This document shows, one piece after another, positions 11,936 through 28,249 of a stretch of 28,249 nucleotides of DNA (position 1 is its first letter; every line of letters begins with the position of its first letter). This DNA comes from a virus. Under the pieces are notes generated by a model. It searched no databases. It was not told the DNA's origin and saw only the letters and a program-made list of their open reading frames with translations. The translations under genes were made by a program, and so were the position numbers. The stretch spans positions 1 through 28,249 of the IMG/VR virus record IMGVR_UViG_3300027906_002301, one strand, 5' to 3'.

Positions 11936-14900
11936 GTGGCTCAAAAAACAGACCTTAATGTTAGTCCTTATTATGATGACTACGCAGACTCTAAGAATTT
12001 TCATAGAGTTCTGTTTAAACCATCAGCTGCAATACAGGCTAGGGAACTAACACAATTACAATCAATACTTCAAAATCAAATTGAGAGGTTTGGTTCTCAT
12101 ATCTTCAAGGAAGGTTCAATCATCCTTGGTGCAAGAACCAACTATGATAATCAATACTTTGGAGTAAGGGTTGAGGATACAAATCCAAATGGTAGTGGGG
12201 TACAGGCTACTGAATCTTTTCGTGCTGACTCAATAGGTAAGTTCTATCAAGGAGTAACCTCTGGTGTTGTAGGTAAAGTTGTAAATTCAAGTCAGAAGAC
12301 AACTACAGACCCACTAACACTACATGTCAAATATCAAAGAACTGGTAATGTTGGTTCTACATTCTATACAGAATTCCAAGATGGTGAAACATTAAACGAA
12401 GTAACCCAAGATTCAAATGGTCTTGGTGGGTACTCAACTGCATCATCAAACAATCAATTTAAAGTTTACTCAGTTACAGGTTCTATAAATGTAGGGTCTA
12501 TGGTTGGAACCGCTGCAAACATATCCGAAGGTATTATATACACAAGAGGAATGTTCGTCAAGGTTCCAGCTCAAACAGTAATCTTAGAAAAATATTCTAA
12601 CACACCATCTTACAAAGTAGGTCTTGATGTTGCAGAAACACTTACATCCTACACCGAAGATGCATCATTGTTAGATAATGCACAAGGTTCAACAAACGAG
12701 AATGCGCCAGGTGCTGATAGATTAACAGTCACATTAACTCTTGCAAAGAAAACAATCAGTTCTACAAACTCAACAGACTTTATAGAATTGATGAGAGTTG
12801 CAAATGGTGAAGTAGTTAAGAAACAAGAAATTACAGAATACAACAGACTCCAAGAAACAATGGCAAGAAGAACCTTTGATGAGTCTGGTGATTACACATT
12901 ACAACCTTTTACTTTAGGATTTAGAGAACATTATAACGACCTATCTAACAATGGTGTTTATACATCTACATCTACTCCTGCTGGAGACACTAGTAAATTT
13001 ATTGGAGTAGTATCTTCTGGTAAAGCATATGTAAGAGGATACGAAGTAGACAAACAAGTCCCTTCATTTATAACATTTGATAAAGCAAGAACAACACAAT
13101 CAAAAGATAATGTTGCATCTGCATTTAGAATTGGTAACTTCTTAAAAATTGAGAATGTTTATGGTCAACCAGACATCAGTTCAAGTGGAGATTTAAGTGC
13201 ATACTCAACAGTAACTTTACAGGACACTGCTGCTGGTAGTGTTTCTGGTAATGGAAGTGCAACAGGAAGTGCAATAGGATATGCAAGAGTAAGAGCATAC
13301 GAAAACTTTGGTAGAAACGAAGGTAACACTGCTGATGTAGACTCATTACATTTATTCGATGTACAGATGTTTACTAAGTTAACAGTTGCATCAACTTCAT
13401 TAACAAAAGGACAAAAGATTAAAGGTGCAACCTCTGGTGCAACAGGTGTTGTTGCAGTTACAGTATCGAGTGGAACAACAGTATTATTACATAGTGTTGT
13501 AGGAACATTCCAGAGTGGTGAGAACATAGAGAAAATGCAAACTAGTTCTGGTGCAGTAGCAATCAGTGCAGTTAGAACTTACGATGTAGGTAGAATAAGA
13601 AGTGTATTCCAAGATAGGGGTGCAAACCAATTCCAAGAATTTGGTGCTGATGTTGTATTAGAAGATAACTTCACTTTAACAGGCAGTGGAACAGTCACAG
13701 TAGACAACGATTCTTCTGCTGATGCAATAACAGGTATTGCATCTAAGTTTACAAGTGAACTTATTGAAGGAGATAAATTACTATTAGCTAATGGTGCAAC
13801 TACTGTCGTTACATTGGTAGACTCAAATACAGATGTTAATGTAACAGATATTGCTGGAACAACTGGTGATGTTATCAGTGGTGCAATCGTAAGACAAAGA
13901 GCAAAATTTTATAAACAAGACCAAACAGTTGCAATCTCTGGTTTACCTAATAGTGGTATTAAAGACATATCAATCGAAACAGAGATTGTTCAAAGACAAG
14001 AAATTGCAACAGTATCATCAAACAAGTTTACAATAAGTTCAACAGATGGAACTTATGTTGCATTTAGTAAAGATGCATATTCTGTAACTTGTGATAATAA
14101 TGGTGCTAAATATGCTCTAGCTTCTAGTAACTTAGACATTGATAATTCTTCGAATGCTGGTTCTGTTGAATTTACATTATCTGGTATTGCAGATAATACT
14201 AAAGTAAAAGTTATCAGTACAGTTCAAAGAGGTTCAGTAACAGCATCAACAAAAAGTTTAGTTAAAGGTGCAGCTATTGGAGTTGAAACTGCAAACTCAA
14301 CATCAAACTATGGTAACTCATATCAACACAATGATATTACACTTGGTGTTGCAGATGTATATTCAGTAAGAGGAATTTTTGAGGGTGGTAACGCAATATC
14401 ATCTGGTGGTGCAGCTGTATCAACAGACCCAATCACACCTTCATTCACATATACTGCTGATGCTGGAAGTAATGCATTATCTACAGAAGGAACAGAAGTT
14501 GTAGGTAGTGTTTCAAATGCAAGAGGTATTCTAATTGAGAATGACTCTAACACTTGTTACTTCTATTACAAAAAAGGTTCAGTCAAATTCCAGAATGGAG
14601 AAGGGATAACATTTACAGATGGAACTGCAAAAGCAGGAACAATAAGTCAACTATCATCAGGCTCAAAAGAGATTACAGATAACTTCTACTTTGATGATGG
14701 TCAAAGAGATGGGTATTATGGAATTGCAAAAATTACTAGAAAGAAAAATGCACCAGCACCTAATGGTAAATTATTAATCGTATTTGATTACTTTACACAT
14801 AGTGCTGGAAATGTATTTACAGGTGCATCTTATCCTAGTTTGGAACTTGAAGATGTTCCAAATTATGTTGCAGATAGATTTGACCCAAGTGCATCCTTTG

Positions 14901-17900
14901 ATGCAGATGGTGATTTTAATCTTGCAGACTCAATCGACTATAGACCAGTTGCAGCTAGACTACTTACCAATGCACCGAGTTCTGATTTATCGGCTGCACA
15001 AAATATTTCTAGTGTTTCAACATTCCCAATGTCATATGATTCAAATGCATTTGAAGGAAATGGTTCAAAGTCTAATGACCTTGCACAAATAGGAACTAAC
15101 ATTACTGTAGACTACGACCATTATCTACCTAGAATAGATAGAGTATTCTTAACATCAATAGGTGATTTTGTAGTGGTTACAGGTGAACCATCAGACAATC
15201 CTAAGAAGGGTGCTAAAGTTGATAATGCAATCGAGGTTGCAGAACTATTCATTCCAGCGTACACACCAGATGCTGGTGATGTAGAAACAAAACTAATTCA
15301 ACATAGAAGATATACCATGAGAGATATTGATGGTATACAAAGAAGACTTACTCAATTAGAAACAGCAGTTTCACTTTCTATGTTAGAAGAGAAAACAGAA
15401 ACATTACAAGTTTTAGATGATGAAGGGTTTGATAAATTCAAATCTGGATTCGTAGTTGATGCATTTAAAGGTCATGGAGTTGGAGATGTATTCCATCCAG
15501 ACTATGGTATTGCAGTAGACCAAGGAGAAGGTATTGCAAGACCATCTCACAGAACAAATTATTTTGACCTAGAATACAACAGTGGTGTATCATCTAATAT
15601 TACAAAGAGTGGAGATTTAATATCTCTACCATTTACAGAGACAGAATACTTAAGTGCTAATAAAGCATCTCAACAAGTTAATGTCAACCCATACGATGTT
15701 GCAAACTTTGTAGGGAGAATGGAACTAAGTCCAGACAAGGATGTCTGGCATGACATGGAACAACTACCAAGTATTACAAGTAACAATGAAGGAAACTTTG
15801 ATGCAGTACTTGCTGGAGTTACTTTAGGGACAGTATGGAATGACTGGCAACAATCATGGGCTGGAACACCAGTAGTCACAACAACAAGTGATACAGTTAC
15901 AAGAGGTATGATGCGTGGTGATGAACCAGAAGAGTTTGAAGTAGTTAGGGGTGGTAGAAGAATACCAATTGGAAGAAGAGGTCTTCGAGGAAGAGGAAGA
16001 GGAAGAACAGGAATTCAAACTACAGTTACAAGAACTATACCTACAAGAGAAAGAAGAACAGGTATCGTAACTAGTGTTGTAGAAGATATTACAACTACAA
16101 GAAACGATAGAGTGGTTGGTGTATCTGCTGTCAACTTCATGAGAACAATTGATATCACCATGAATGGTGAATTACTAAAACCGAATACTGCATTGAATGT
16201 GTTCTTTGATAACATCAATGTCAATGCACATTGTACTCCAGCATCTGCAACTTATGGTGTAGGTGGTGCAACTGCAAAAGGAACACAACTAGTCACAGAC
16301 AACCAAGGTAAGTTAACTGCAACATTTACAGTACCAAACGATGATACATTAAGATTTGAAACTGGTATTAGAACTCTTAAAGTTACCGACACTGTAGCAG
16401 TAGATGATGCATTATCAACTACTTCTGCATTTACAAACTTCATGGCAAATGGTTCATTAACATCTACACAAACAGAAGTTATAAACACAAGAAATGGTAG
16501 AACAGTTACAGAATCAATTAATGCATCAAGAGAAGGACAACTTGTTTCTAGTAATACTACAACAAGATGGATAGACCCACTTGCACAATCATTCTTGGTA
16601 GAACAAGAAGAAGGTGTATTTATTAGTTCAGTAGAAGTTTACTTTAGTGCAAAAGATGGTGGTGGATTACCAGTCACATGTTCAATAAGACAAATGTTGA
16701 ATGGTTCACCTACACAGAAAATTATGCCATTTGCAGAGAAGACATTATATCCAAGTGAGATATCAGTCAGTGCAAATGCGAGTACAGCAACCAAGTTTAC
16801 ATTCCCAGCACCAGTTTATTTGAACCCAAATACAGAATATTGTTTTGTACTTGAATCAAATTCAAATGCATTCTTAACATGGGTTGGTCAGATGGGAGAC
16901 TTTGATATATTAACAAATGAACCTATTGATGAACAACCATACGCTGGTGTATTATTCAAGTCTCAAAACAGTTCGACTTGGACACCAGAACAAATGCAAG
17001 ACTTGAAATTTAACATCAACAGATGTAAGTTCCAAACTTCTGGTAAAGCAGTTTTAGAAAATACTGTTATAAACAGTAAGTTATTAAAGAACAATCCAAT
17101 AGAAACTATTTCTACAGATAGAGATAGAATTAAAGTTCATCATCAATCACATGGTATGTATGATACTGATTCTAATGTAACAATCTCTGGTGTTGAAGGA
17201 GATAAGGACAATGGTATCTTATCAGTAACTACAAGTGCTGGAACTGGTGGTGTTGTAAATACATACACTGGCGTGACTGGAACAGGAGCTGGAGATGCAA
17301 CTTTCGATATCAAACTTGATACAACTACAAGTATTGAGTGGATTAAGATTAACAACCCAGGCTATAACTTTGCAGTAGGTAATACAATTACGATTCCAAG
17401 AAGTGCAGTTGGTGGAACTGGTGCAACAACATTCTTAACAATAACAGTTGCATCTGTAGATGATACTTTAGGTGGAATACCAATTAGTAAGATTAACACA
17501 ACACATGGAGATGGAAACTTTAAATCATATGATATGGATTCATATGAGATTGATGTAACTTTAGGTGACCATCTTGGTTCAACAGAATCAACAAGAGCAG
17601 GTGGAAGTTCAGTTATTGCATCTGAAAATATGTACTACGATGTGATTCATACTTTAGTACCAAACATCATTTATCCTAAAACTTCATTGTCATCACAATT
17701 CTTTAAAACAAGTACAGGTGGTGTAAATGCAAATTCTGGTGGAAACAGTTATACTAGAAATACTGCAAGTCAAAATATTGTCTTGAACGATAATAACTTT
17801 ATGGTTACATCTGGTATCGTTGCATCACAAATCAACGAAACGAATGAGATGGCATCTGCAAAATCATTTAGAATAGAACTTGACTTAATATCTGAATCTG

Positions 17901-18382
17901 ATTTCGTATCACCAGTTGTTGATGTTGCATCTATAGGTGCAAACACAATCATGAATAGAATTAACCATGTTACTACAACTAGTGATATTGCAACTAATAC
18001 ATCTTTAGTTGCTGGAACAGAACCAGATGGAGATAACAATGCATCCATCTATTGTACAAGATTAGTACAGTTAGAGAACCCAGCAACACAATTAAAAGTT
18101 ATCTTTGATGGATTTAGAGCAGCTGGTACTGCTGATGGTGAGATTAAAACATATTACAAATTATTAAAATCAGATAGTACATTACCAGTAGAAGAATTGG
18201 GATGGACTGAGTTTGGAACAGATAATGTTCCAGATGCAGATTCAAGTAAATTTAGGTCATACGAATATGATGCAACTAACCTAGAAGACTTTGTAGGATT
18301 CTCGGTTAAGGTTGTAATGAAGAGTAAAGACACAACCATGCCTTGTGCTATAAAGGCATTTAGAGGATTGGCACTTGCATAA
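11936..18382 (+). CDS. Giant DUF4815-type virion structural protein (2148 aa)
   Basis: Residues about 5-65 (DLNVSPYYDDYADSKNFHRV, then SAAIQARELTQLQSILQNQI and SHIFKEGSIILG) match the N-terminus I associate with DUF4815 proteins, large virion proteins of T4-like marine phages encoded near gp8. The central region is a chain of beta modules, including KGQKIKGATSGATGVVAV. Conserved late blocks are DRVVGVSAVNFMRTIDITM from residue 1391 and DPLAQSFLVEQEEGVFISSV from residue 1547. Residues 1338-1357 hold nine arginines and seven glycines. The start is GTG with AGGA at 11923-11926; no early in-frame ATG exists. The position corresponds to outer-wedge/fibre-attachment genes (T4 gp9-gp11), so a baseplate-to-fibre connector is a reasonable guess, but its biochemical role is unknown. 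Confidence 0.85.
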   Translation: MAQKTDLNVSPYYDDYADSKNFHRVLFKPSAAIQARELTQLQSILQNQIERFGSHIFKEGSIILGARTNYDNQYFGVRVEDTNPNGSGVQATESFRADSIGKFYQGVTSGVVGKVVNSSQKTTTDPLTLHVKYQRTGNVGSTFYTEFQDGETLNEVTQDSNGLGGYSTASSNNQFKVYSVTGSINVGSMVGTAANISEGIIYTRGMFVKVPAQTVILEKYSNTPSYKVGLDVAETLTSYTEDASLLDNAQGSTNENAPGADRLTVTLTLAKKTISSTNSTDFIELMRVANGEVVKKQEITEYNRLQETMARRTFDESGDYTLQPFTLGFREHYNDLSNNGVYTSTSTPAGDTSKFIGVVSSGKAYVRGYEVDKQVPSFITFDKARTTQSKDNVASAFRIGNFLKIENVYGQPDISSSGDLSAYSTVTLQDTAAGSVSGNGSATGSAIGYARVRAYENFGRNEGNTADVDSLHLFDVQMFTKLTVASTSLTKGQKIKGATSGATGVVAVTVSSGTTVLLHSVVGTFQSGENIEKMQTSSGAVAISAVRTYDVGRIRSVFQDRGANQFQEFGADVVLEDNFTLTGSGTVTVDNDSSADAITGIASKFTSELIEGDKLLLANGATTVVTLVDSNTDVNVTDIAGTTGDVISGAIVRQRAKFYKQDQTVAISGLPNSGIKDISIETEIVQRQEIATVSSNKFTISSTDGTYVAFSKDAYSVTCDNNGAKYALASSNLDIDNSSNAGSVEFTLSGIADNTKVKVISTVQRGSVTASTKSLVKGAAIGVETANSTSNYGNSYQHNDITLGVADVYSVRGIFEGGNAISSGGAAVSTDPITPSFTYTADAGSNALSTEGTEVVGSVSNARGILIENDSNTCYFYYKKGSVKFQNGEGITFTDGTAKAGTISQLSSGSKEITDNFYFDDGQRDGYYGIAKITRKKNAPAPNGKLLIVFDYFTHSAGNVFTGASYPSLELEDVPNYVADRFDPSASFDADGDFNLADSIDYRPVAARLLTNAPSSDLSAAQNISSVSTFPMSYDSNAFEGNGSKSNDLAQIGTNITVDYDHYLPRIDRVFLTSIGDFVVVTGEPSDNPKKGAKVDNAIEVAELFIPAYTPDAGDVETKLIQHRRYTMRDIDGIQRRLTQLETAVSLSMLEEKTETLQVLDDEGFDKFKSGFVVDAFKGHGVGDVFHPDYGIAVDQGEGIARPSHRTNYFDLEYNSGVSSNITKSGDLISLPFTETEYLSANKASQQVNVNPYDVANFVGRMELSPDKDVWHDMEQLPSITSNNEGNFDAVLAGVTLGTVWNDWQQSWAGTPVVTTTSDTVTRGMMRGDEPEEFEVVRGGRRIPIGRRGLRGRGRGRTGIQTTVTRTIPTRERRTGIVTSVVEDITTTRNDRVVGVSAVNFMRTIDITMNGELLKPNTALNVFFDNINVNAHCTPASATYGVGGATAKGTQLVTDNQGKLTATFTVPNDDTLRFETGIRTLKVTDTVAVDDALSTTSAFTNFMANGSLTSTQTEVINTRNGRTVTESINASREGQLVSSNTTTRWIDPLAQSFLVEQEEGVFISSVEVYFSAKDGGGLPVTCSIRQMLNGSPTQKIMPFAEKTLYPSEISVSANASTATKFTFPAPVYLNPNTEYCFVLESNSNAFLTWVGQMGDFDILTNEPIDEQPYAGVLFKSQNSSTWTPEQMQDLKFNINRCKFQTSGKAVLENTVINSKLLKNNPIETISTDRDRIKVHHQSHGMYDTDSNVTISGVEGDKDNGILSVTTSAGTGGVVNTYTGVTGTGAGDATFDIKLDTTTSIEWIKINNPGYNFAVGNTITIPRSAVGGTGATTFLTITVASVDDTLGGIPISKINTTHGDGNFKSYDMDSYEIDVTLGDHLGSTESTRAGGSSVIASENMYYDVIHTLVPNIIYPKTSLSSQFFKTSTGGVNANSGGNSYTRNTASQNIVLNDNNFMVTSGIVASQINETNEMASAKSFRIELDLISESDFVSPVVDVASIGANTIMNRINHVTTTSDIATNTSLVAGTEPDGDNNASIYCTRLVQLENPATQLKVIFDGFRAAGTADGEIKTYYKLLKSDSTLPVEELGWTEFGTDNVPDADSSKFRSYEYDATNLEDFVGFSVKVVMKSKDTTMPCAIKAFRGLALA

Positions 18383-23527: not shown

Positions 23528-24826
23528 ATGGCGCAAACAGTCCAATTAAAAAGGTCTGCTACCTCTGGTGCAGTCCCAAGTACATCTGATTTAGAGCTAG
23601 GTGAATTAGCAATTAATACCTATGATGGTAAAGCATACATTAAGAAAAGTGTAGGTGGTACTCAATCTGTTGTTGAAGTAGGTGCAGACAGTACATCCGA
23701 TATGACAGACATGTCACACTATGTTTATACTGCAAGTGCAAACCAAACAACATTTACAGGTACAGATGTAAATTCCGAAACCTTATCATACACTTCTGGT
23801 CAAATTGCAGTATTCATGAATGGAGTATTTTTAGACCCAGATGATTATACTGCAAGTAATGGAACATCAGTAGTACTAGATGATGGTGCAAAATCTTCCG
23901 ACTATCTTGAGATAGTTGCTTGGAAGGCAGGTGATTCTGGATTGTTTACTGGTTTAAGTACATATGAATTCACTGCAACTGCAAACCAAACAGTATTAAA
24001 TGGTGCAGATGAAAACAGTGCAACTTTATCATATACAGTAGGTAAAGTATTAGTATTCTTAAATGGTGTCCTTATGGATAATAGGTCTGGAACAGACTAT
24101 ACAGAAACTAACACATCTACAATAACATTCAGTTCTGGACTCCAAGTGGGTGACACTGTTATTGTAAAGGCATACTCTGGTACAGCACCATTTACCAGAT
24201 TTCAATATGATATTACTGCATCTTCTACTTCAAATATAAGTGGTTCAGATGCAAATAGTAATACATTAAGTATCATTCCCAAGTATACAGAAGTATTTGT
24301 GAATGGTGTCTTAGTAAAAAAAGGACAATGGAACTCTGGAAGTGGAACACAAATTAATTTTGAAGAAGCACTTACAGACCCAAACTATGTTATAGATGTA
24401 ATTGATTATGGATATCCAACTCCAGAGGTCAATTTATTCTTAGACACAATACCTTTCCTTGGTGGTAATTTAGATACCAATGGAAAGGATATAGTTTCAA
24501 GTGGGACTGATTCAGTTACACTAAAACCATCTACCTATGTAGATGTACAGGATGGCCCGATGCATATGGAAATACTTGCGTCTGACCCTTCTGGAGTTGC
24601 TAATCGTGCATCCATATATGCAAAGGATGTATCGTCTAGTGCAGAATTATTTGTGAGAGATGAAGCAGGTAATGTTACCCAAATATCTCCGCATAACACC
24701 GATGGTGAGTGGATTTACTACTCTGAAAATGTGAAAACTGGTAAAAGGTTTAAAGTCAATATGGAAAGTATGATTAGAAAATTAGAAAAAATCACTGGAG
24801 AGACTTTCATTGAAATAGATGATTGA
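23528..24826 (+). CDS. Fibre protein with Mtd-like N-terminus and three tandem beta modules
   Basis: Residues 1-40 (VQLKRSATSGAVPSTSDLEL, GELAINTYDGKAYIKK) are an Mtd-type N-terminal attachment domain. Residues about 65-295 hold three tandem copies of a roughly 70-residue module (NxxTLSY...VFxNGVxLxxxDYT...G....D.[IV]...A), the same module that occurs once in the 18575 fibre. The C-terminus (DGEWIYYSENVKTGKRFKVN followed by MESMIRKLEKITGETF) is a pattern I know from other marine T4-like fibres. It ends in a short helix and may be a trimerisation or attachment point for the next protein. The length is 432 aa. The ribosome site is weak. It is likely a short fibre or connector, encoded directly before the very long fibre gene. 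Confidence 0.82.
   Translation: MAQTVQLKRSATSGAVPSTSDLELGELAINTYDGKAYIKKSVGGTQSVVEVGADSTSDMTDMSHYVYTASANQTTFTGTDVNSETLSYTSGQIAVFMNGVFLDPDDYTASNGTSVVLDDGAKSSDYLEIVAWKAGDSGLFTGLSTYEFTATANQTVLNGADENSATLSYTVGKVLVFLNGVLMDNRSGTDYTETNTSTITFSSGLQVGDTVIVKAYSGTAPFTRFQYDITASSTSNISGSDANSNTLSIIPKYTEVFVNGVLVKKGQWNSGSGTQINFEEALTDPNYVIDVIDYGYPTPEVNLFLDTIPFLGGNLDTNGKDIVSSGTDSVTLKPSTYVDVQDGPMHMEILASDPSGVANRASIYAKDVSSSAELFVRDEAGNVTQISPHNTDGEWIYYSENVKTGKRFKVNMESMIRKLEKITGETFIEIDD
23720..24412 (+). repeat. Three tandem coding repeats (about 70 aa each)
   Basis: Copies lie at 23720-23936, 23963-24181 and 24206-24412. Each has a Y/F-x-x-T/S-A opening, SxTLSY/SNTLSI, then a strand with FxNGVxxxxxxY/W and a closing hydrophobic strand. 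Copies one and two are most alike (TASANQTTFTG/TATANQTVLNG); copy three is more diverged. The repeats are visible at protein level and only partly at DNA level. Confidence 0.8.
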
Positions 24827-24866: not shown

Positions 24867-27800
24867 ATGCCAACTAAAGCAAGATATCTTGCAGACCTTT
24901 TGAATGCATCTGGAGAACTAGACTCCACAGGTGCTATTGAAGCAATACAAGACCAAATTTCAAGTCTGTTTGCAGCTGGAACACATACAGGTATATCATT
25001 CAGTTATAATGATTCGTCTGGTACATTTAGTGCAACAGTTGGAGCAGAATTTATTCAAGATACAGTTGGAGCTATGTTTAGTTCCAATACAGAGACAAAT
25101 ATAACTGTAGGTTATGAAGATGGTGATGGCACCATTGACCTTGCAGTAGAGCAACAATTAAACAACACATCAGCACCATACTACCATAAGATTGTAGTTA
25201 CAGTTGCTGGTGGTAAACTTGTATTAGATGGTGGTTCACAACAAACAGCAAAACTTTCTCCTAATGTTGTTTATAGATTTGACCAATCAGCAGCGAGTAA
25301 TGCAACACATCCTATAAGATTCTCCACAACCAGTGATGGTACACATAACAGTGGTGCAGAAATGTCTGCTGGATATACAATTTATAACAAGTCTGGAACA
25401 GCAGGTAATGCTGGTGCATATGTAGAAGTATGTTTTGAACAAGATGCAATGAATCCACATTACTACTATTGTGCAAACCACAGTGGAATGGGTGGAAATG
25501 TTCACATAGGTGAAGTTCCATCTACAGACCAATTAACAGAAGGCTCAACAAACCTTTACATGACCAACGAAAGAGTTCAAGACATCGTTGGTGGAATGGT
25601 ATCATCTAACACTGAAAGTGGTATATCAGTGTCATACGAAGATGGAGATGGTACTTTAGATTTCAATGTTAATGACCCAACCATCTCTTTAACTGGAGAT
25701 GTGACTGGTTCTGCAACAATGACAGATTTAGGAAGTACTGCAATTGCAACTACTATTGCAGCTAACAGTGTTGCACTAGGAACAGACACAACAGGAAATT
25801 ATGTTGCAACAGTCGCTGGTACAGCAAACGAAATTACTGTTGCTGGTTCTGGTTCTGAAACAGCAGGTGTGACAATCTCATTACCAGATGATGTCACAAT
25901 AGGAAATGATTTAACAGTCACAGGAGATGTTGGTGCAGCCAACTTAACACTATCTGGAAACTTAACTGTTTCTGGTTCTACAACTACAGTGTCATCTTCT
26001 ACCTTACAGGTAACAGATGGTGCAGTTAAAGTTGCAAAAGATAACGCTGCAGATGCAATCGACTTTGGTTTATATGGTCAGTATGTTGATGGTTCAACTA
26101 CAAAATACGCAGGACTATTATGGGATGCATCTGAATCAAACAAATTTAGATTATTCCATGGTAACCAATCAGAACCTACAACCACAGTTAATACAAGTGG
26201 AACAGGACATTCAACAGGTACTTTACTTGCAAATGTTGAGGGTTCATTAACAGGTAATGCTTCAACAGCAACAGCACTTGCAACTGCAAGAACAATATCA
26301 CTTGCTAGTGACTTGTCTGGTTCTGCATCTTTTGATGGAACTGGAAATATTACAATCAATGCAACAATTGCTGCCGACTCAGTTGCATTAGGAACAGACA
26401 CAACTGGTAACTACATGGCACAGGTTGCAGCTGGTGAAGGTATTGATATATCTCACACACAAGGTGAAGGTTCTACTGCAACAATATCAGCAGAACTTGC
26501 AACAGAAACAAATCCCGGCGTAGCAACATTTGATGGAACAGACTTTACAGTAAGTTCTGGAGATGTTACAGTTAATGCAGAAAGAATTCAAGACATCGTA
26601 GGTGCAATGGTATCAAGTAATACTGAAACAGGTATTGCAGTGACTTATGAGGATGGAGATGGTACTCTAGACCTTGCAGTAAGTCTTTCATCATTTGATA
26701 CAGACGATTTATCAGAAGGCTCAAGTAATCTTTATCATACATCAGAAAGAGTTGCAGATGTTGTAGGTGCAATGGTAACCTCAAATACCGAGAGCGGTAT
26801 TTCTGTAACCTATGACGATTCAGATAATACACTTGACTTTACAGTAGCAACACTTAACCAAAACACAACTGGTTCTGCAGCTACTTTAACAACTGCAAGA
26901 ACTATACATGGTGTATCATTTGATGGTAGTGCAAACATTGACTTATCAGAAACTATTCAAGACACTGTTGGTGCAATGTTCTCATCTAATACCGAGACTG
27001 GTGTCTCAGTAACTTATGAAGATTCAGATGGAACTATTGACCTTGCAGTAAGTGGTGCTGCAGCAACAATCGTATCAGACTTCACAGAAGCTGTTCAAGA
27101 TGTAGTTGGTGCAATGGTATCATCCAACACAGAAAGTGGTATAGCAGTAACATATGAGGATGGAGATGGTACTCTAGACTTTGATATTGCAGACCATACA
27201 ATTACTCTTGGTGGTGATTTATCTGGTAGTGCAACAATAACAAATGGTGCAAGTGCAACCTTAACTGCAACGATAGCTGCAACATCTGTAGAGAACAGTA
27301 TGTTAGCAGGTTCGATTGCAAATGCAAAACTTTCAAATTCAAGTATAACAGTTTCAGATGGTTCAAATACAAGTCCAGTAGCACTAGGTGGTACTTTGAC
27401 TTTTGCTGGTACTTCAAACGAAGTAGATGTTGCAGAAAGTTCTGGAACAATTACATATGGACTACCTTCTGATGTCACAATATCAAACGACTTAACAGTT
27501 AGTGGAAACTTGGTAGTTAGTGGTACAACAACTAACACTGGTGCAACAGTTTCAGATTCAAACTTTACAGGTTTATCAGATGCAAACACAGGAAACGCAA
27601 CAGACTTTGGTTTCTATGGTAAGTATGTAGAATCAACAACCACAAAATATGCTGGTTTATTCTACGATGCATCAACAGATAATACATTTAGATTATTTGC
27701 AGATACACAAACAGTACCTTCAACAACAGTTAATACAACTGCAACAGGATATACAGTAGGTACATTAGTTGCAAACATTACAGGTAATGTAAGTGGTACT

Positions 27801-28249
27801 TCTGGAAGTACAACAGGAAACGCTGCAACTGCAACTGCACTTGCATCGTCAAGAAACTTTACAGTAAGTGGAGATGCAACTACAGACTCATCACAATCAT
27901 TTGATGGAACAGGAAATGTTGCATTACCAATTACACTTGCAGCTTCTGGTGTATCCGCTGCAACTTATGGTGATGCAAATAGTGTTGCTCAAGTAGCAGT
28001 AGATGCAAAAGGTAGAATAACAAGTGCATCGAATGTAGACATTAGTATGCCTGCATCACAAGTATCAGATTTTGCAGAAGCAGTATCAGACCAAGTAGGT
28101 GCAATGTTCAGTTCAAATACTGAAACTGGCATTACAGTTACATATGAAGATTCAGATAATACAATCGACCTAGTAGTAGGAACAGTTGCATTAGGTTCTG
28201 GAACTTCTGGAAACTATGTTGATAATGTCACAGGTGGAACTGGAGTCAC
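24867..28249 (+). CDS. Very long tail fibre, incomplete at right edge (at least 1127 aa)
   Basis: The frame is open from the ATG to the window end with no stop. The N-terminus (PTKARYLADLLNASGEL) is a start I associate with T4-like marine fibres. Residues about 108-213 form a cupredoxin-like domain with His148, Cys202, His205 and Met208. The shaft then carries seven copies of a 32-residue unit (IQD.VGAM.SSNTETGI..TYEDGDGTIDL), EGS.NLY.T.ERV linkers, and two versions of a large module with LTVSG, a DFG-YG-Y segment, YAGL..DAS and TTTVNT. Low-complexity Thr/Ala/Ser runs join them. The end of the gene, with any chaperone or tip domain, is outside the window. AGGAG at 24853-24857 fits the start. 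This is probably the main long side fibre; the receptor is unknown. Confidence 0.87.
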   Translation, partial: MPTKARYLADLLNASGELDSTGAIEAIQDQISSLFAAGTHTGISFSYNDSSGTFSATVGAEFIQDTVGAMFSSNTETNITVGYEDGDGTIDLAVEQQLNNTSAPYYHKIVVTVAGGKLVLDGGSQQTAKLSPNVVYRFDQSAASNATHPIRFSTTSDGTHNSGAEMSAGYTIYNKSGTAGNAGAYVEVCFEQDAMNPHYYYCANHSGMGGNVHIGEVPSTDQLTEGSTNLYMTNERVQDIVGGMVSSNTESGISVSYEDGDGTLDFNVNDPTISLTGDVTGSATMTDLGSTAIATTIAANSVALGTDTTGNYVATVAGTANEITVAGSGSETAGVTISLPDDVTIGNDLTVTGDVGAANLTLSGNLTVSGSTTTVSSSTLQVTDGAVKVAKDNAADAIDFGLYGQYVDGSTTKYAGLLWDASESNKFRLFHGNQSEPTTTVNTSGTGHSTGTLLANVEGSLTGNASTATALATARTISLASDLSGSASFDGTGNITINATIAADSVALGTDTTGNYMAQVAAGEGIDISHTQGEGSTATISAELATETNPGVATFDGTDFTVSSGDVTVNAERIQDIVGAMVSSNTETGIAVTYEDGDGTLDLAVSLSSFDTDDLSEGSSNLYHTSERVADVVGAMVTSNTESGISVTYDDSDNTLDFTVATLNQNTTGSAATLTTARTIHGVSFDGSANIDLSETIQDTVGAMFSSNTETGVSVTYEDSDGTIDLAVSGAAATIVSDFTEAVQDVVGAMVSSNTESGIAVTYEDGDGTLDFDIADHTITLGGDLSGSATITNGASATLTATIAATSVENSMLAGSIANAKLSNSSITVSDGSNTSPVALGGTLTFAGTSNEVDVAESSGTITYGLPSDVTISNDLTVSGNLVVSGTTTNTGATVSDSNFTGLSDANTGNATDFGFYGKYVESTTTKYAGLFYDASTDNTFRLFADTQTVPSTTVNTTATGYTVGTLVANITGNVSGTSGSTTGNAATATALASSRNFTVSGDATTDSSQSFDGTGNVALPITLAASGVSAATYGDANSVAQVAVDAKGRITSASNVDISMPASQVSDFAEAVSDQVGAMFSSNTETGITVTYEDSDNTIDLVVGTVALGSGTSGNYVDNVTGGTGV
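25188..25505 (+). other. Cupredoxin-like domain inside the long fibre
   Basis: The segment has a cupredoxin order of elements: opening strands (KIVVTVAGGKLVLDG), VYRFDQS, HPIRFSTTSDGTH with His148, a Gly/Ala-rich strand ending AYVEVCF, then YYYCANHSGMGG. Cys202-x2-His205-x2-Met208 matches the C-x2-H-x2-M ligand loop of amicyanin-type copper proteins, with His148 as the upstream ligand. I recall similar YYYC.NHSGMGG sequences in other marine phage fibres. Confidence 0.72.
25878..27953 (+). repeat. Two diverged copies of a large fibre module
   Basis: Copy one spans about 25878-26388 and copy two about 27459-27953. Shared order: LP.DVTI.NDLTV.G, DFG.YG.YV..[ST]TTKYAGL..DAS, F.LF, TTTVNT, GTL.AN, GN..TATALA..R, SFDGTGN, then a short beta strand. 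Most DNA identity has been lost, so this is ancient module duplication rather than a recent event. The 21614 gene carries the related [12 protein letters not shown] and [15 protein letters not shown] pieces. Confidence 0.75.

Follow-up and report, generated by a model that had tools for sequence, protein, structure and literature searches.

The window analysed here, a 28,249-base virus fragment from IMG/VR, carries a T4-type baseplate and fibre cluster, as judged by its gene content: genes for a gp5-like hub/lysozyme, gp25, gp6, gp8 and a DUF4815 protein were found along with those for several fibre proteins, one of which ends in a Peptidase_S74 chaperone. Comparison of gp6 identified the Methylophilales phage Melnitz and the pelagiphages Mosig and HTVC008M as the closest cultured phages, at 39-42% identity. 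The DUF4815 protein (2148 aa, window positions 11936-18382, GTG start) additionally matches phrog_358, which is of unknown function; homologues of this protein, located in marine phages near genes carrying the domain described below, are annotated as VrlC or virulence-associated protein. The last open reading frame of the window is visible for 1127 residues and is still open at the window end. Its labelling as a tail fibre in the first-pass annotation is upheld by PHROGs matches and by the adjoining T4-type baseplate genes: it encodes a long repetitive structural protein within a tail/baseplate cluster, and its homologues are annotated as fibres. A shaft-type repeat with a unit like IQDxVGAMxSSNTExGIxVxYEDGDGTxDLxV is present at least seven times in the protein. 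Residues 104-218, a stretch of about 115 residues, lie between two shaft units and outside the repeat pattern (Table 1), and the only two cysteines among the 1127 fibre residues seen are both found there. A Pfam BTB_3 match in the fibre repeat (residues 66-113, E 7e-5, barely over the cut-off) was judged spurious and is a false positive that automatic annotation could adopt. The adjoining 432-aa fibre protein (23528-24826) has approximately three internal repeats of a unit of about 75 residues (ANQTTFTG...VFMNGVFLDPDDY).

Table 1. Window coordinates of the fibre gene, the shaft units flanking the domain, the domain itself and its predicted ligands.
Feature	Position	Strand	Basis
Tail fibre gene	24867..28247	+	ORF and translation; PHROGs tail-fibre and minor-tail matches
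Shaft repeat unit directly before the domain, residues 63-94	25053..25148	+	Repeat listing
Cupredoxin-like domain, residues 104-218	25176..25520	+	AlphaFold2, Foldseek, profile match to Copper-bind proteins
His148, predicted equatorial ligand, in His-Pro	25308..25310	+	Kept in 193/193 domains with Cys and second His; falls on the plastocyanin-family His
Cys202, predicted ligand	25470..25472	+	193/207 non-redundant domains, always jointly with His205
His205, predicted ligand	25479..25481	+	193/207 non-redundant domains, always jointly with Cys202
Met208, predicted axial ligand	25488..25490	+	191/193 intact domains; otherwise one Leu, one Tyr
Shaft repeat unit after the domain, residues 237-268	25575..25670	+	Repeat listing

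The first-pass annotation had proposed a cupredoxin-like segment at 25188-25505, i.e., residues 108-213 of a full domain spanning approximately 104-218, with His148 and Cys202-x2-His205-x2-Met208 in the order of a type-1 copper site, and the translation indeed has all four residues as stated. The motif alone is weak: three occurrences of the back-translated Cys-x2-His-x2-Met DNA pattern were counted in the window against 1.9 expected, which is chance level, and motif statistics were therefore not used as evidence. On sequence evidence, it is conservation within the family that raises the predicted ligand set above chance.

AlphaFold2 prediction on 45 aligned domains yielded a confident beta-sandwich (pLDDT 92.3, pTM 0.86). 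In the domain numbering of this model, the first His is located just before strand 47-50, the Cys ends the next-to-last strand (95-99), and the second His and the Met are found in the loop preceding strand 107-111. This placement bears out the cupredoxin-like strand order proposed earlier; sequence and model placement together fit the type-1 ligand order (His, Cys, His and an axial residue) and the corresponding strand positions. The structure prediction suggested as a check also gave a cupredoxin-like fold when the model was compared with solved structures using Foldseek: the best matches were mostly cupredoxins, namely laccases, three-domain nitrite reductase, rusticyanin and amicyanin. The matches were modest, with a probability of about 1 but E values from 2e-3, TM of about 0.5 and 10-15% identity; the weak E and TM values notwithstanding, the domain qualifies as a Greek-key beta-sandwich with cupredoxin strand order. 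Antibodies and a semaphorin were also among the Foldseek matches, but cupredoxins ranked higher, and an immunoglobulin-like reading was rejected. Residues 104-218 almost certainly adopt a cupredoxin fold. Foldseek matches in BFVD (A0A481Z6J5, A0A481YY19, A0A481YVH3 and others, fold match E 1e-6 to 1e-5) are 'Beta-sandwich proteins' of metagenomic pithovirus- and marseillevirus-like giant viruses, and because these proteins match the predicted fold, the cupredoxin-like module may extend to eukaryotic viruses.

Single-domain sequence searches of Pfam, NCBIfam and PDB found nothing, and the window domain did not match PF00127 (Copper-bind), the curated cut-off not being reached; when 45 relatives were compared with PF00127, 12 gave weak matches, the best with an E value of 0.006. 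Profile-profile comparison (hhalign) with Copper-bind proteins, by contrast with reversed and column-shuffled control profiles that scored at most 0.4%, gave 97% and an E value of 1.6e-10, with the four residues falling on the four plastocyanin-family ligand columns. The comparison set consisted of proteins matched by the Pfam Copper-bind model in marine genomes, which had been excised with a permissive His...Cys...His...Met pattern; that these proteins have ligands is hence a matter of selection, whereas the way in which they align with the phage profile is not. The profile signal derives mostly from surface-protein domains of Bacteroidetes (Flavobacteriaceae) that pass the Pfam cut-off, and the plastocyanin-like and azurin-like subsets alone gave 58% and 0.3%, respectively. 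Sequence-profile homology to accepted cupredoxin members is established by this comparison. The domain is placed as a divergent branch of the cupredoxin superfamily outside PF00127, under which it is not filed because the window domain fails the Pfam model. Several phage copies also match PF25489 (At5g54830-like domain, plant-named) weakly and below the cut-off (best E 9e-5), hinting at a broader cupredoxin-like family.

In a first pool of 204 homologous domains, His, Cys and the second His were present in 204/204 each and Met in 203/204. Since many of these loci had been retrieved with a pattern containing the Cys-His-Met motif, which could have forced ligand conservation, the retrieval was repeated without the ligand motif, using only the stretch intervening between His148 and Cys202, and phage records from tblastn were added. 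Clustering at 90% identity left 207 non-redundant domains: 191 have His-Cys-His-Met, one has Tyr and one Leu in place of Met, and 14 have lost both Cys and the second His, three of the latter being short degenerate copies. Loss of Cys alone or of the second His alone was seen in none of the 207. Among the 147 non-redundant domains reached without the ligand pattern, 133 keep His-Cys-His (131 with Met, one with Tyr, one with Leu), while the remaining 14 all lack Cys and the second His. Intact domains were defined via Cys and the second His only, so that conservation of His148 and Met208 is independent of that choice; in these domains the ligand columns occupy the top four ranks of conservation. 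Single changes are confined to the axial position (Leu, Tyr), where known type-1 sites vary as well. The 11 full-length ligandless domains keep 76% at the other top conserved columns and 14% at the ligand columns, and the Pro following His148 is lost in all of them. When seven phages, cultured or known from fosmids, were inspected by eye across their entire genomes, 17 distinct copies emerged: 14 have the complete site (in one of them the Met is shifted by one residue towards the C-terminus), three are without it and none is mixed. With the ligand columns left out of a FastTree tree, seven changes were counted for Cys and seven for the second His, each coinciding with a change of the other; only three of these seven joint changes fall on branches with support, and the tree test of joint loss therefore does not reach significance alone.

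The ligand survey of phage homologues that had been suggested earlier therefore speaks for the site, His-Cys-His being kept in 193 of the 207 non-redundant domains. Free loss of ligands with the fold kept, which had been named as a refutation, was not encountered: some homologues do lose the ligands with the fold predicted to be retained, but the loss is not free, Cys and the second His always going jointly. For a ligandless relative (L232) the same strands were predicted, with rusticyanin as best Foldseek match and cupredoxins as almost all of the top 20; the model was built from an alignment with ligand-bearing rows, so that its fold is not fully independent. As far as the aligned sequences tell, the putative ligands are selectively lost and are kept or lost together. 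About 7% of the non-redundant domains lack the site, from which it follows that copper is not required by every such protein.

Searching 50,697 phage records with tblastn detected the domain in 84, nearly all of them named phages of Synechococcus, Prochlorococcus, Pelagibacter or Methylophilales; carriers thus include phages of non-photosynthetic hosts (SAR11, Methylophilales). Hundreds of further copies are found in viral contigs, and members of a sister subfamily were detected in 346 phage records, in many cases under the name gp9 (baseplate wedge tail-fibre connector). The phage carriers comprise fibres, gp7, gp9, a protein annotated as peptidase S8 (S-BM3), virion structural proteins of Syn1 and S-TIM5, and the tail fibre of an Autographiviridae fosmid phage, with up to four copies per phage genome. 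The domain is present in PHROGs 27200, 693, 30742, 708 and 677, which are annotated as tail fibre, baseplate wedge or unknown, without mention of a metal site or a cupredoxin fold. Some gp7 proteins have an intact copy followed by a ligandless one: in gp7-like proteins of S-CAM22, P-SSM4 and P-SSM7 (L203, L213, L217) the second copy lacks Cys and both His, and these tandem copies are a natural pair for probing the contribution of the metal site. The domain with all ligands was also observed in giant surface proteins of marine Bacteroidetes and in a SAR86 protein (L085, L097, L100, L109); L085 is a giant Bacteroidetes protein with Ig-like and FG-GAP repeats, and L109, from SAR86, has a lipoprotein-like start and a single domain. 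These marine bacterial carriers are a possible cellular source or exchange partner. Two further contigs, L115 (189 kb, filed under Prochlorococcus) and L118 (filed as a Euryarchaeota MAG), have in common a domain-bearing ORF of about 2377 aa with the same layout and probably represent phage DNA that ended up in single-cell or metagenome assemblies. The common theme of the carriers is an exported or particle-surface protein. Taken together, a cupredoxin-like domain with a type-1-like ligand set in the tail fibre, as first proposed, is borne out by the fold, by profile homology with shuffled controls and by ligand conservation; it is, however, no oddity of one fibre, the module being common in marine phage structural proteins.

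The best reading of these data is a cupredoxin module with a predicted mononuclear type-1 site of amicyanin spacing (His...Cys-x2-His-x2-Met). Cys-x2-His-x2-Met is the spacing found in amicyanin, and His-Pro at the first ligand occurs also at the type-1 His of multicopper oxidases. Like members of the amicyanin/plastocyanin family (PF00127), the phage domain is a predicted beta-sandwich whose His, Cys, His and Met columns align with theirs; unlike these free electron carriers, it is a module within a long fibre, has a longer segment between His and Cys, and has Pro rather than Asn after the first His. The cupredoxin domains of rusticyanin, laccase and nitrite reductase are its top Foldseek matches, although no trinuclear or type-2 copper site was noted in the phage domain. 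Metal binding and metal identity are inferred, no metal measurement being available, and we consider it probable that the domain binds copper. Occupation of the cupredoxin scaffold by another metal such as zinc or iron survives best among the alternatives while remaining unlikely: the identity of the metal is not known and metals other than copper can occupy a His2-Cys site in vitro, but Cys-x2-His-x2-Met with a distant His in a cupredoxin fold is the type-1 copper pattern, and axial Leu or Tyr with His-Cys-His kept suits a type-1 site better than zinc sites.

Bound copper could also serve as bait, copper-loaded fibres docking on host outer-membrane metal-uptake proteins in a copper version of the Ferrojan Horse. 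A role in adsorption and trace-metal chemistry has been proposed for the iron-binding HxH tail fibres of T4 gp37 and Alteromonas phage R22Y, and iron in such fibres and a proposed use of siderophore receptors have been discussed for marine phages (PMC11705849). The likeness to the window fibre lies in a metal held in a tail fibre, which for the latter is only predicted; the difference is that no HxH motif occurs in the 1127 fibre residues seen and that the predicted site lies within one domain. The occurrence of the domain in fibres of many marine phages agrees with a bait role. Nonetheless we regard this role as improbable: no receptor is known, the metal of type-1 sites is mostly buried, and as a general role it is disfavoured because gp7 and gp9 baseplate proteins, which are not obvious receptor-binding tips, also carry copies.

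Also to be weighed is a domain that binds no metal, an ancient cupredoxin scaffold in which His, Cys, His and Met serve folding or packing only. Direct evidence of a metal is absent, and the ligandless copies with their fold predicted to be retained can be read in this manner. Pure packing, however, predicts single losses, whereas Cys and the second His go only jointly with most else kept, and the ligands are the four most conserved columns; this explanation is accordingly held to be quite improbable. An electron exchange like that of other cupredoxins, e.g., with host surface or thylakoid redox proteins, is very improbable despite the type-1 ligand set of electron-transfer proteins, amicyanin spacing included: it is disfavoured because the fibre and the adjoining genes showed neither a redox partner nor a second redox centre, and a single common redox partner is unlikely given the spread of the domain over many unrelated structural proteins and over phages whose hosts are not photosynthetic.

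Stiffening or shaping of an exposed docking module by a type-1 copper site is more likely than moving electrons, and no specific support for electron transfer, copper sensing or host mimicry comes from the present evidence. We propose that the fibre would be made in the reducing host cytoplasm with its site empty, and that each domain would take up one copper ion on or after release into seawater, the timing being hypothetical. The metal would then lock the His loop and the Cys-His-Met loop together, and the locked loop end might form a stable, pre-shaped exposed face for docking, with the host surface or a further virion protein as partner. Given copper, we lean towards such a stiffening/docking role, which remains a hypothesis, docking being without direct support. 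The reading as a whole, i.e., a cupredoxin module between shaft repeats with a type-1 site that is loaded with copper after release and acts in stiffening or docking, could as readily prove wrong as right.

The fold and the ligand set are already known; what looks new is where the domain is located in marine virions, how abundant it is there and that its ligands are present or absent as a set. No prior report of cupredoxins or blue copper in phage tail structures was found in the open-access literature; subscription papers and further database annotations were outside the scope, so that an earlier mention cannot be excluded. Because the ligands are kept or lost together in hundreds of marine virus proteins, marine viruses may carry copper on their tails, copper binding being inferred. 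If copper binds, recurrent marine phage proteins that are annotated merely as structural or hypothetical would gain a chemical function testable in cultured phages (Syn1, P-SSM2, S-TIM5, Mosig, Melnitz). It is possible, albeit doubtful at present, that blue-copper sites are present in large numbers on the fibres and baseplates of a substantial fraction of pelagic phage particles, marine T4-like ones among them, and that they acquire their copper after release. Copper is both the cofactor of plastocyanin and a toxicant for picocyanobacteria. If this wider proposal were true, virions would be a particulate ligand pool for marine copper, and the stability or adsorption of phages would be tuned by how much copper is available. 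The view of metals in phage tails, which so far comprises iron only, would be widened to copper if copper binds, and virus particles would be tied to the copper chemistry of the surface ocean.
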